DNA from: a virus | Virus record (IMG/VR): IMGVR_UViG_3300019759_000001 | Location: 1-37,330 of that record | DNA: 37,330 bases | Strand: one strand, 5' to 3' | In this document: piece after piece, positions 4,365-34,754 of the stretch | Layout: each line of letters starts with the position of its first letter | Position numbering within the stretch: the first letter of the stretch is position 1 | Position numbers and translations under genes: made by a program | The notes under the pieces: generated by a model | Told to the model about the DNA's origin: nothing | Seen by the model: the letters and a program-made list of their open reading frames with translations, nothing else | The model's database searches: none

Positions 4365-4478
4365 ATGGCTGATAAAGTATTAGAACTATTAAAACTAAGA
4401 TACCCAGAGGTATCAGAAGAAGTATTAAAACAACGTGTTAAATGGGCGTTGAAGGATATTAAGGAGTGGGAAAGATGA
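4365..4478 (+). CDS. Small helical protein upstream of the methyltransferase
   Basis: A 37-residue protein, ATG 4365 immediately after the previous stop. It reads MADKVLELLKLRYPEVSEE onward: two amphipathic helices with a proline turn. Its TGA overlaps the ATG of the methyltransferase gene (ATGA at 4475), so its translation probably feeds the methyltransferase. Function unknown. Confidence 0.65.
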   Translation: MADKVLELLKLRYPEVSEEVLKQRVKWALKDIKEWER

Positions 4479-5866
4479 TTAGGTTATTCGAAGCGTTTAG
4501 CGGTTATGGTTCGCAAGCTTTAACTATGAAAAGATATGGTATTGAATTTGAATCAGTAGGTATCGCAGAAATAGACAAATACGCTATACAAGCACACGAA
4601 GCATTACATGGACCAATTAAAAATTATGGTGATGTATCAATACTAGAAGTTCACGAATTACCTGATATGGACTTATTTACTTATTCTTTTCCTTGTCAGG
4701 ATATTAGTAACGCTGGTAAGCAAATGGGATTAGAAAAAGGCAGTGGTACTAGATCATCTTTACTATGGGAGTGCGAAAGAATCATCGAAGGTAAGCGACC
4801 TAAATTCCTGATGATGGAAAACGTTAAGAATCTAGTAGGTAAGAAGAATAAACCTCATTTTGACGAATGGCTGCAAGTGTTAGAAAGTTTAGGGTATAAC
4901 AACTATTGGAAAGTTATTAATGCTAAATGGTGCGGTGTACCACAAAACAGAGAACGTGTATTTTGTGTAAGTATTAGAAAAGATGTTGATAATGGACTAT
5001 TTAACTTTTACGAAGACTTTGACAACGGAATCAGATTGAAAGACATTCTTGAAACTGAAGTTGATGAAAAATATTATTTGTCAGAGGAAATACAAAGTCG
5101 ATTTAAGTATAGACCATCAGGCTCTAATATACTAGGGACTACAAAGGGTGAGAATAATACACGTCACGGTCAAAGGGATGTTGTTTATGATACAGGTAAA
5201 AAAATTGGCTGTTTATCTGCTACTGATTATAAGCAGCCAAAACAAATTTTAGTTAAAGAAGCTACTAAAAAAGGTTATAAAGAAGCTTATCCTGGTGATA
5301 GTATTAACCTAGAACATCCAAACAGCAATACTAGACGTGGACGTGTAGGTGTAGGTGTAGCTAATTGTCTAACCACTTCTTGCAATCAAGCAATAGTAGA
5401 GCCAAAAGTTAACGAAATAGGACTATTAAATACTGATAGGCATTCTTCTTGTATGAACACGATACATGGCACAGATAGAATATGTAGAACGTTAGATACT
5501 ATGCAAGGTGGTAATAGACATCCTAAAATATTAGAAGCTGATGGGTTTTATAGTGGTACTAGTGAAGCGTTTATGCCAAAACCTATGAAAGGAATAAGTA
5601 AATGTCTAAAAGCTAATAAACACGATGCTTCGGTAATAGAAAACAATTATAGAATCAGAAAACTTACACCATACGAATGCCTAATTTTAATGGGTTTAAC
5701 TCATGAAGAAGCAATGTTATTAGTTAACTCAGGTATAAGCAATAGTCAACTTTATAAAATGGCTGGTAATTCAATAGTTGTTCAGTGTATGAGGTTCTTA
5801 AAGAAACTTGAGGCGACCAATATATTAAATGAAGATAAGCCTACTGGTCAACTTTCTTTATTCTAG
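4475..5866 (+). CDS. DNA cytosine-5 methyltransferase
   Basis: A 463-residue orphan C5 methyltransferase, which transfers a methyl group from S-adenosylmethionine to cytosine in DNA. Motif I FEAFSGYGS (residues 5-13) binds the cofactor; motif IV SFPCQDIS (71-78) carries catalytic Cys74; motif VI is ENVKNL (115-120); motif VIII CGVPQNRERVF (153-163); the C-terminal RKLTPYE (395-401) and GNSIV (431-435) complete the fold. The target-recognition region (about 170-392) is long and contains four related C-L-x-T/A... motifs. ATG 4475 is chosen over GTG 4466 because AAGGAG (4461-4466) is 8 bases upstream and the ATGA overlap fits. No restriction enzyme is adjacent, so protection against host restriction is the likely role. 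Confidence 0.95.
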   Translation: MIRLFEAFSGYGSQALTMKRYGIEFESVGIAEIDKYAIQAHEALHGPIKNYGDVSILEVHELPDMDLFTYSFPCQDISNAGKQMGLEKGSGTRSSLLWECERIIEGKRPKFLMMENVKNLVGKKNKPHFDEWLQVLESLGYNNYWKVINAKWCGVPQNRERVFCVSIRKDVDNGLFNFYEDFDNGIRLKDILETEVDEKYYLSEEIQSRFKYRPSGSNILGTTKGENNTRHGQRDVVYDTGKKIGCLSATDYKQPKQILVKEATKKGYKEAYPGDSINLEHPNSNTRRGRVGVGVANCLTTSCNQAIVEPKVNEIGLLNTDRHSSCMNTIHGTDRICRTLDTMQGGNRHPKILEADGFYSGTSEAFMPKPMKGISKCLKANKHDASVIENNYRIRKLTPYECLILMGLTHEEAMLLVNSGISNSQLYKMAGNSIVVQCMRFLKKLEATNILNEDKPTGQLSLF

Positions 5867-31938: not shown

Positions 31939-32085
31939 ATGAAGATATATGAATTATATATAAAATTTTGTGTTCTTTTGGAAGAACATCTTATATTATG
32001 TCTTCTTATTAATATTGTTTTTTTAGTGCTAGTTTCATACATATTGGCACTGATGAAATATGGAACTCATAAAATCAGGGGGTAG
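31939..32085 (+). CDS. Small membrane protein, lysis cassette
   Basis: A 48-residue protein from ATG 31939 with GGGAGG upstream. One long hydrophobic helix (about residues 19-39) with a charged C-terminus (KYGTHKIRG). First gene of the lysis cassette, two bases before the XhlA-like gene. A holin or holin partner is possible. Confidence 0.6.
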   Translation: MKIYELYIKFCVLLEEHLILCLLINIVFLVLVSYILALMKYGTHKIRG

Positions 32086-32087
32086 CT

Positions 32088-32294
32088 ATGGAATACAAAA
32101 CTTGTCCGGGGTTTATTGATCTAGACAAAAGGGTTGCGGTTCTAGAAACTGAACAGAATACTATGAAAAAAGATATTATTGAAATTAAGCAGAATCAAAA
32201 AGAAGCAAGAAACCTAGCAATGACTACGCTTGTTACAAGTCTTTTATCTACCATAGGTATTATCGTGACTTTATTAGTAATGTTAGGGGGTTGA
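32088..32294 (+). CDS. XhlA-like holin-associated protein
   Basis: A 68-residue protein. An N-terminal coiled coil (LDKRVAVLETEQNTMKKDI) is followed by a C-terminal membrane helix (VTSLLSTIGIIVTLLVMLGG), the exact plan of the XhlA (hemolysin/holin) family. In Bacillus phages XhlA works with a holin and amidase in lysis. SD CAGGGGGT upstream. Followed one base later by the HhH gene. Confidence 0.8.
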   Translation: MEYKTCPGFIDLDKRVAVLETEQNTMKKDIIEIKQNQKEARNLAMTTLVTSLLSTIGIIVTLLVMLGG

Positions 32295-32295
32295 T

Positions 32296-32562
32296 ATGAG
32301 TAAGAGGTTAATAAAATCCTATGCCGTTGTTATACTAGTTGTATTAATTATAGTTAGTGTAATAGCGGTAACATTAAACAAGCCACCAATAGAACAAGCT
32401 ACAATATACGAAATACAAGCTATACAAGGGATAGGTGAGATTTTGTCCCTTCGTATAGTTAATTATATAGGTGATTCAGAAACTTTTGACATAGAGGATT
32501 TATTGAACGTTAAAGGTATAGGAAAAGAAAAGTTAAAAGAACTTAGGAAGGAGTTCAGATGA
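32296..32562 (+). CDS. Membrane-anchored helix-hairpin-helix protein (ComEA-like)
   Basis: An 88-residue protein. Residues about 9-26 form one membrane helix. The rest has two helix-hairpin-helix motifs: EIQAIQGIGEILSLRIVNY (about 40-58) and DIEDLLNVKGIGKEKLKEL (about 65-83). The two GIG turns are the non-specific DNA backbone contacts of ComEA-type HhH domains. With the N-terminal anchor the domain should lie outside the membrane. It lies inside the lysis cassette, and its TGA overlaps the amidase ATG. A ComEA homologue here is unexpected; roles in DNA entry, exclusion or envelope work are only hypotheses. Confidence 0.8.
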   Translation: MSKRLIKSYAVVILVVLIIVSVIAVTLNKPPIEQATIYEIQAIQGIGEILSLRIVNYIGDSETFDIEDLLNVKGIGKEKLKELRKEFR

Positions 32563-33278
32563 TTAAAATAGTATTAGATGCTGGTCATGGACCAGATACA
32601 CCAGGCAAAAGAACGCCAAAATTTGAAGATGGTACTTTCATGCATGAACACGAGTTTAATAATTCGGTTGTAAAAAAACTTAAAGACAAATTAAATTCAG
32701 TAGGTAAGTTTAACGTTACTGTAGTTTCTTCTGAATATAGAGATGTACCACTTGCAGAAAGAGTCAGTCTTGAAAGAGAAGTAAAAGCAGATTTATTTTT
32801 AAGTGTACACGCAAATGCTTTAACAGGTGCATGGGGTACTCAAAACGGTTTAGAATCTTATAGTAATGTAGGATCGGTAATAGGTGCAGAATATTGCAAA
32901 ACTATTCAAAACAATTTAGTTGCTGCTACCGGATTAAGAAATAGAGGTGCTAAAACATCTTCATTCTATGTATTAAAAAATACTTATGGTCCGGCCGTAC
33001 TTGTTGAATGTGGTTTCATGGATAATAAAGAAGAAGCTAAGTTGCTAATGAGTTATGAGTATAGAGAATTAATCGCAGAAAGTCTATTTAAATCCATATG
33101 CAGTATATTTGATGTAGAAGTTGATAAACCTGATGTGGTAGAACACTGGGCAGAAGGTCCATACAAGTTTTTAACTGAAGAAGTAGGTATTACTATTAAC
33201 GAAAAAAGATTTGATGATCCTATAACTAGAGGTGAGGTATTTGCAATATTAGCAAGAATGGAGGGGTACGATGAATAA
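32559..33278 (+). CDS. Endolysin: N-acetylmuramoyl-L-alanine amidase with SLH-like tail
   Basis: A 239-residue protein of the Amidase_3 type. Zinc ligands are His10 in DAGHG, Glu32 in HEFNN and His84 in SVHANA; Glu150 in VECGF is the catalytic acid. It cleaves the bond between muramic acid and the peptide stem. After about residue 192 comes a single S-layer-homology-like module (WAEGPYKFLTEEVGI...DPITRGEVFAILARM), a wall-binding unit. No signal peptide, so release depends on a holin. The start overlaps the HhH gene's stop and the 3' end overlaps the next gene by 8 bases. Confidence 0.93.
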   Translation: MIKIVLDAGHGPDTPGKRTPKFEDGTFMHEHEFNNSVVKKLKDKLNSVGKFNVTVVSSEYRDVPLAERVSLEREVKADLFLSVHANALTGAWGTQNGLESYSNVGSVIGAEYCKTIQNNLVAATGLRNRGAKTSSFYVLKNTYGPAVLVECGFMDNKEEAKLLMSYEYRELIAESLFKSICSIFDVEVDKPDVVEHWAEGPYKFLTEEVGITINEKRFDDPITRGEVFAILARMEGYDE

Positions 33279-33447: not shown

Positions 33448-33456
33448 ATAAAGTTA

Positions 33457-33489
33457 AGCCCTCTTAGAATTAACTAGGAGGGCTTTTTA
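33457..33489 (+). terminator. Strong rho-independent terminator after lysis genes
   Basis: An 11-bp stem, AGCCCTCTTAG (33457-33467) with CTAGGAGGGCT (33474-33484; one T-G wobble), loop AATTAA, T-run to 33489. It ends the virion and lysis unit. Confidence 0.92.
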
Positions 33490-33612: not shown

Positions 33613-34314
33613 ATGAAAGAAGTTTGGAAGGATATAAAGAGTTACGAAGGTATGTATCAGGTTAGCGATTTGGGTAGAGTTAGAAGTTTAGATAGATTTA
33701 ATTCTTTAGGGAGAAAGATAAGTGGTAAAATACTATCTCCATCTTCGTACAAAGGATATAAAGGAGTTAATTTATGCAAAAATTCTATTGTCAAGTATAT
33801 AAGATTACACACATTAGTAGCTAATGCATTTTTGAAGGAATGTAATTATGACAAGGAAGTTAACCATATAGATTTTGATAGATCAAATAACAAATTAAGC
33901 AATCTTGAGTACGTTACCCATAGAGAAAACATGGAACACTCCGCTAAAAACGGAAGGATGGGTAATGCATATAAAATGGATGAAGAACAAATATTTAGAA
34001 TTTTAATTTATGCTAATAATGGAATTGGTTTGAAAACAATCTCTAATTCTGAAGGGTTGGACGTTCGGTTAGTAAGTAGAATTGTTAATAGACAAATTAA
34101 TTTGCCTATTCCGCTGCAAGATTTTGAAATGAACAATATTGAATCAATTAAAAAACCAAAAGAGAAGTTGGATTTTAAAATGAAATATTTAAGAATGGTC
34201 GGTTTTTCTTTAAAAGATATAGCATATTTGTTTGATATGGATTTTACCAACGTAAGCAAGAGGACTAAAAAATATAAAAATGAAATAGAACTGTATAAAT
34301 CTTATTGTGAGTAA
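33613..34314 (+). CDS. HNH homing endonuclease (NUMOD4-HNH type)
   Basis: A 233-residue protein. EVWKDIKSYEGMYQVSDLGR (residues 3-22) is the NUMOD4 DNA-binding module. HTLVANAFLKEC (about 67-78) and EVNHIDFDRSNNKLSNLEYV (about 84-103) form the HNH core. A C-terminal HTH-like region (DEEQIFRILIYANNGIGLKTI and onward) reads DNA. This is the I-HmuI-like class that spreads by cutting intronless or island-free sites. It is not inside an intron here; it stands beside the tRNA genes. TAGGAGGT lies before the ATG. It probably mobilises this island. Confidence 0.9.
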   Translation: MKEVWKDIKSYEGMYQVSDLGRVRSLDRFNSLGRKISGKILSPSSYKGYKGVNLCKNSIVKYIRLHTLVANAFLKECNYDKEVNHIDFDRSNNKLSNLEYVTHRENMEHSAKNGRMGNAYKMDEEQIFRILIYANNGIGLKTISNSEGLDVRLVSRIVNRQINLPIPLQDFEMNNIESIKKPKEKLDFKMKYLRMVGFSLKDIAYLFDMDFTNVSKRTKKYKNEIELYKSYCE

Positions 34315-34366: not shown

Positions 34367-34443
34367 GGAAGGATAACTCAGTAGGTCAGAGTGCTTGTTT
34401 GAAACGCAAGAGGTCGGTAGTTCGAATCTACCTTTTTCCACCA
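34367..34443 (+). tRNA. tRNA-Phe (GAA)
   Basis: All four arms form. Acceptor GGAAGGA pairs with TTTTTCC (two G-U). The D arm is ACTC/GAGT with GG in the loop, the anticodon stem is CTTGT/GCAAG with loop TTGAAAC (anticodon GAA), and the T arm is GGTAG/CTACC with loop TTCGAAT. CCA is encoded. Confidence 0.9.
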
Positions 34444-34679: not shown

Positions 34680-34754
34680 GTGAATGTACGCAAGTGGTAT
34701 GCGGCACCGTTTGGGACGGTGAGGTCGTGGGTTCAAGTCCTACCATTCGCACCA
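34680..34754 (+). tRNA. tRNA-Pro (TGG)
   Basis: Acceptor GTGAATG pairs with CATTCGC, the D arm is CGCA/TGCG, the anticodon arm is CACCG-TTTGGGA-CGGTG (anticodon TGG), and the T arm is GTGGG/CCTAC with TTCAAGT. CCA is encoded. All arms are clean. Confidence 0.92.

Follow-up and report, generated by a model that had tools for sequence, protein, structure and literature searches.

The competence protein ComEA, as known from Bacillus subtilis and Geobacillus (structures 8dfk and 8dss), is positioned on the outer side of the membrane by an N-terminal anchor and carries a pair of helix-hairpin-helix (HhH) motifs that are joined by a loop without a connector helix (PMC9747964). In Gram-positive bacteria, ComEA requires an oligomerization domain; K164 in the first hairpin is essential for transformation, its Geobacillus equivalent is essential for DNA binding, and K199 matters in vivo (PMC9747964). 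Among phage lysis systems, the T4 RI/T complex binds periplasmic DNA, delaying lysis; the holin T consists of a short inside end, one transmembrane (TM) segment and an outer domain (PMC8385771, PMC11413866). PBSX-type XhlA-XhlB-XlyA cassettes as well as the cassettes of Enterococcus phages with XhlA and Phage_holin_1 (PMC10630273) encode an XhlA-like protein, a holin and an endolysin in one operon. The cassette described here resembles these in its parts, but differs from them by an added gene for a membrane HhH protein between the XhlA-like gene and the endolysin gene.

The lysis cassette and its HhH protein

The window, i.e., the whole stretch of 37,330 nucleotides that was analysed, is an IMG/VR record (IMGVR_UViG_3300019759_000001) with phage genes for a large terminase, a primase-helicase, ERF and Gp157; a weak match to PF12236, a head-tail connector of the short-tailed-phage type, is below the cut-off of that family. 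A C-5 cytosine DNA methylase (PF00145, 223.6 bits) is encoded in the early region (4466-5866), and a NUMOD4-HNH homing-type endonuclease gene (33613-34314), located just past the lysis terminator, adjoins genes for tRNA-Phe (34367-34443) and tRNA-Pro (34680-34754). The features of the lysis cassette are listed in Table 1.

Table 1. Features of the lysis cassette and its upstream neighbours (positions in the window).
Feature	Coordinates	Strand	Remarks
Late structural-region gene, 1115 aa	28590..31937	+	Ejection or internal virion gene, judging by position; neighbours cassette upstream
48-aa ORF, one TM helix (residues 19-35)	31939..32085	+	Shine-Dalgarno GGGAGG; precedes cassette; from sequence
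XhlA-like small membrane protein	32088..32294	+	N-terminal coiled-coil-like part; C-terminal TM, residues 48-64
Membrane-anchored HhH protein (the finding)	32296..32562	+	88-aa ORF
TM helix of HhH protein, residues 9-27	32320..32376	+	K/R: 3 on N side, 1 on C side
HhH motif 1, residues 37-59	32404..32472	+	Hairpin GIG 45-47; model helices 37-41 and 47-59
HhH motif 2, residues 66-87	32491..32556	+	Hairpin GIG 74-76 (YIG in both relatives)
Endolysin Shine-Dalgarno AGGAAGGAG	32545..32553	+	Within last HhH codons; from sequence; equivalent in relatives
Endolysin, Amidase_3, 239 aa	32559..33278	+	Pfam 136.6 bits; PHROG 435 endolysin
Probable holin, 58 aa, two TM helices	33271..33447	+	Position of Phage_holin_1 in relatives
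Intrinsic terminator ending cassette	33456..33485	+	12 pairs, T tail

The positional counterpart of the 1115-aa gene in a related phage contig (record G002) matches the internal virion protein PHROG 6651; a 48-aa ORF with one TM helix and a good Shine-Dalgarno sequence sits between this gene and the XhlA-like gene. An initial annotation had placed the HhH gene between an XhlA-like holin protein and the endolysin, overlapping the start of the latter. The position holds, and the overlap comprises 4 bases (ATGA at 32559-32562); the likeness of the upstream protein to XhlA, however, is one of layout only, as its score against XhlA (PF10779) is 11.1 bits, below the Pfam cut-off of 34.7, and it matches PHROG 1193 ("hemolysin") with an E value of 0.009. 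Since the two genes overlap by ATGA and the endolysin Shine-Dalgarno sequence is made of HhH codons, the HhH gene and the endolysin are most likely expressed from one late transcript with coupled translation; promoter-like matches around the cassette do not exceed the shuffled expectation. The C-terminus of the endolysin (33150-33278; EGPYKFLTEEVGI...PITRGEVFAILARM) is similar to one half of an S-layer homology motif and might bind the wall.

The ATG of the HhH ORF is preceded by GGGGG on sequence inspection, and its 88-aa translation is MSKRLIKSYAVVILVVLIIVSVIAVTLNKPPIEQATIYEIQAIQGIGEILSLRIVNYIGDSETFDIEDLLNVKGIGKEKLKELRKEFR. The one-helix anchor and double HhH domain that had been noticed initially were both recovered, i.e., a TM helix at residues 9-27, which form the best 19-residue window and are strongly hydrophobic (mean Kyte-Doolittle value 3.14), and an HhH pair at residues 31-88. 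Across the window protein and its two relatives, K and R residues number 3, 3 and 2 before the helix and 1, 0 and 1 after it; by the positive-inside charge rule, the N-terminus would thus lie inside and the HhH domain on the outer membrane face, as first suggested, and the charge pattern predicts the same for all three proteins. A second membrane HhH protein was observed in record G002 (L057:1480-1938, minus strand; HHH_3 score 33.6 bits), where its gene is located between a tail-fibre-type region and ejection-type genes; this 152-aa protein has two TM helices, with 11 K/R in the loop between them, and a C-terminal HhH domain that is likewise predicted to be outside by charge. Placement of the HhH domain outside becomes more credible because two differently anchored HhH proteins give the same predicted side. 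In the 152-aa protein, the hairpin reads GVGEIRA, and the residue at the site of ComEA K164 is basic.

Relationship of the HhH protein to ComEA

Profile searches, structure models and two relatives all support the proposed ComEA-type design of anchor and HhH pair. The HhH protein matches Pfam HHH_3 over residues 34-88 (27.9 bits, E 2.6e-6; gathering cut-off 27) and, over residues 31-85, the HhH part of the NCBIfam comE model TIGR01259 (E 4.8e-7), with 29.8 bits compared to a family cut-off of 152.35 bits. The nearest solved chains by sequence are the ComEA-related 2duy and ComEA itself (8dfk and 8dss), and a three-sequence profile raises the ComEA match to an E value of 2.2e-7 (8dfk). The window protein and one relative (L004) were modelled with AlphaFold2 (pLDDT 76.6 and 79.5, respectively), and both models consist of a TM helix followed by two helix-hairpin-helix motifs; as in ComEA, a loop rather than a connector helix separates the two motifs. 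Searched against the PDB with Foldseek, these models give 8dss and 2duy as their best matches (probability 1.00; E values 0.013-0.042), and the top fold matches in BFVD are giant-virus HhH proteins of 224-343 aa. The sequence and fold matches are HhH proteins, and neither RI nor T is among the matches listed.

Despite this likeness, the HhH protein, as judged from its sequence, is not ComEA: it has no oligomerization domain, scores far below the comEA model and has no competence context. It comprises 88 aa compared to about 200 for ComEA, and it has neither the ComEA oligomerization domain nor the linker, only 3 residues lying between the TM helix and the HhH region. ComEA is encoded in a competence operon, whereas the HhH gene is part of a phage lysis operon; no competence gene neighbourhood was found, with a lysis cassette present in all three contigs.

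The key DNA-binding lysine of ComEA is also missing. In the window protein and the relatives L004 and L027, respectively, the residues are L, Y and Y at the K164 site, E, S and S at K193, E, K and K at K197, and R in all three at K199; the net charge of the HhH domain is -2 to -5, and the GIG of the first hairpin is invariant. We gave the loss of K164 little weight and did not treat it as decisive, because this site is variable in 67 sampled HhH proteins from Clostridia (of which a few are possibly not ComEA), with K or R in 25 and neither in 42 (T in 25, K in 21, L in 8, I in 6 and R in 4). The YIG found in the second hairpin of both relatives was absent from the sampled Clostridia ComEAs. 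Overall, binding of DNA by the HhH domain appears plausible from its fold, with the balance tipping slightly in its favour.

Relatives in reshuffled cassettes

The family is known from three distinct contigs only; one further contig of the collection carries an identical copy of the HhH protein. Two diverged relatives, L004 in record G001 (45% identity to the window protein) and L027 in record G002 (35% identity to the window protein and 59% to L004), were found in related phage contigs at the equivalent cassette position. The window cassette has the order XhlA-like protein, HhH protein, Amidase_3 and two-TM protein; in G001, where the XhlA-like protein has a relative, the order is XhlA-like protein, HhH protein, Amidase_3 plus Glucosaminidase, and Phage_holin_1; and in G002 the HhH protein is preceded by a TM coiled-coil protein of another kind (PHROG 462) and followed by Peptidase_M15_3 and a Phage_holin_1 closely similar to that of G001. 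The HhH protein is hence the sole part common to the three cassettes; the membrane gene upstream of it, the kind of endolysin and the holin all vary among them. In 3/3 cassettes, the HhH gene overlaps the endolysin gene by ATGA and contains the endolysin Shine-Dalgarno sequence in its 3' end, which partly dictates the conserved C-terminal LRK of the HhH protein. These phages are mosaic, as the window has early and lysis genes in common with G001 and tail-region genes in common with G002.

Identities at the three codon positions are 0.53, 0.73 and 0.40 for the window gene and L004, and 0.65, 0.75 and 0.58 for L004 and L027; dN is smaller than dS in all HhH pairs (with dS near saturation for pairs that include the window gene), a pattern that indicates purifying selection on the HhH protein. 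The ORF is considered real, and its conservation above chance, because two diverged relatives keep its length, layout and position, with codon-position bias and dN below dS. Between the window and G001, the endolysins (76% identity) are closer than the HhH proteins (45%).

Whether HhH genes lie beside endolysins in other phages had been raised as a check on the initial annotation; they do so in the two related contigs, and no true relative was found among GenBank phages. Searches with the three HhH proteins against 50,697 GenBank phage records either yielded nothing or were limited to matches with ComEA, ligases and nucleases, and GenBank phages and plasmids contained no relative beyond ComEA-like and other HhH matches. 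The matches of a ComEA consensus query of GenBank phages were polymerases resembling DnaE and records whose sequence resembles that of a host. Among the consensus matches inspected (only some were), the one in L021 was a Tex-type protein and L138 lies among housekeeping genes; in L138, from the GenBank record of Acinetobacter phage MD-2021a, the ComEA-type gene is flanked by relA, mazG, panB and panC, and part of this record looks like host chromosome. Matches in a genome-contig scan were ComEA, LigA and UvrC on inspection. In a profile search of 391 Clostridia genomes, all matches started at residue 21 or later and were in frames of at least 83 aa, mostly of ComEA size. No HHH_3 protein over the cut-off was present in 16 other viral records with related amidases, and no additional cassettes came to light when the XhlA-like gene or the M15 endolysin served as query. 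According to the initial annotation, no phage system with this layout was known, and our literature search agrees: it turned up no published account of a membrane-bound HhH protein encoded within the lysis cassette of a phage, and the mentions of ComEA that it found in phage papers concern the host receptor. The HhH protein of this lysis cassette is real and conserved in a small group, and seems not to have been described before.

Possible roles in lysis

Membership of the HhH protein in the lysis module is well supported by gene order; a role in lysis is suggested because the HhH gene is constant in otherwise reshuffled cassettes and overlaps the endolysin gene. We tentatively favour, as a possibility, an accessory or regulator of lysis on the outer membrane face that is probably DNA-responsive; this reading was chosen because of the cassette constancy and overlap, the T4 RI/T precedent and the matching layout of T. 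The roles suggested initially, i.e., binding of released DNA, block of superinfection and DNA entry, are not separable from sequence; control of lysis was not among them, and T4 RI/T provides a published precedent for DNA sensing. Several observations count against a lysis regulator, including L, Y and Y in place of K164, the YIG of the second hairpin, the negative domain charge and a divergence between window and G001 that exceeds that of the endolysin.

Some of these same features would also suit an HhH domain that binds protein only; the protein would then act without DNA as a holin partner or antiholin, its outer domain docking on holin, endolysin or some element of the wall. Degeneracy is seen in the basic contact residues and in the GIG of the second hairpin, the domain is negatively charged, and HhH folds acting as protein modules exist (e.g., PsbU of photosystem II, which was among the fold matches of our model). 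ComE1 of Pasteurella is reported to use its HhH motifs to bind fibronectin (PMC2601033). We nevertheless consider a protein-only function somewhat unlikely, given that the first GIG is invariant, the K199 equivalent is basic in 3/3 proteins, and neither upstream nor downstream membrane partners are conserved across the three cassettes. If the HhH domain instead faced inward, it could tether phage DNA to the membrane while this DNA is being replicated or packaged; phi29 p16.7 is described as tethering phage DNA in this manner, HhH domains show no preference for particular sequences when binding DNA, and DNA is plentiful inside the cell. The charges before the helix predict the opposite side, as do those of the two-TM HhH protein of G002, and the gene lies in the lysis rather than the replication region, so that we give a cytoplasmic anchor little credence.

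A late outer HhH domain might also block superinfection, by catching DNA or tail components of incoming phages or by competing with the host ComEA receptor. Such a function would not need tight coupling to the endolysin, and genes for superinfection exclusion are typically early genes or are expressed by the prophage, rather than lying in a late lysis operon. This explanation, which we regard as rather unlikely although it is, next to protein-only binding, a main rival of the favoured reading, would fit the position on the outer face, the existence of surface-exposed exclusion lipoproteins of the Ltp type (PMC3952083) and a report of host ComEA as receptor for an Enterococcus phage (PMC9009173). 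The closest relatives being ComEA, a reduced ComEA could finally be imagined to aid DNA entry or to hold host DNA on the membrane ghost, freeing virions; we find this highly improbable, as the oligomerization domain that Gram-positive ComEA needs (PMC9747964) is missing, no other competence gene is nearby and a phage would gain little from taking up DNA as its host lyses.

Under the favoured reading, that of an outer-face lysis regulator, the HhH protein would be made late and just before the endolysin, with coupled translation, and would reside in the cytoplasmic membrane with its ComEA-type HhH domain in the wall zone. There, the domain could contact DNA outside the membrane that has leaked out or been injected by superinfecting phages. 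Such contact, relayed by the TM helix or by a holin acting as partner, might alter the time at which the holin opens, in the manner of T4 RI/T, which has a different fold. The more specific proposal of a sensor of extramembrane DNA that times lysis, derived from a ComEA-like HhH domain in a phage whose host is probably Gram-positive and convergent with T4 RI/T, appears unlikely at present. If the HhH protein does bind DNA on the outer face, it would represent a simple second form of DNA-responsive control of lysis or superinfection, outside the T-even phages, as well as a small testable model, and would illustrate how a competence-type domain can be taken over by phages for late functions.

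Among known systems, the Ltp-type lipoproteins are likewise small phage proteins exposed on the outer membrane face, but have a lipid anchor and a different fold and are prophage-expressed (PMC3952083). Like T4 T, the HhH protein combines a short inner end, a TM helix and an outer domain, and, like RI/T, it is a lysis-gene product with an outward domain; by contrast, its fold and sequence are unrelated, and the host of T4 is Gram-negative. The HhH protein may perhaps work like RI/T, yet it is not a member of the RI/T family.
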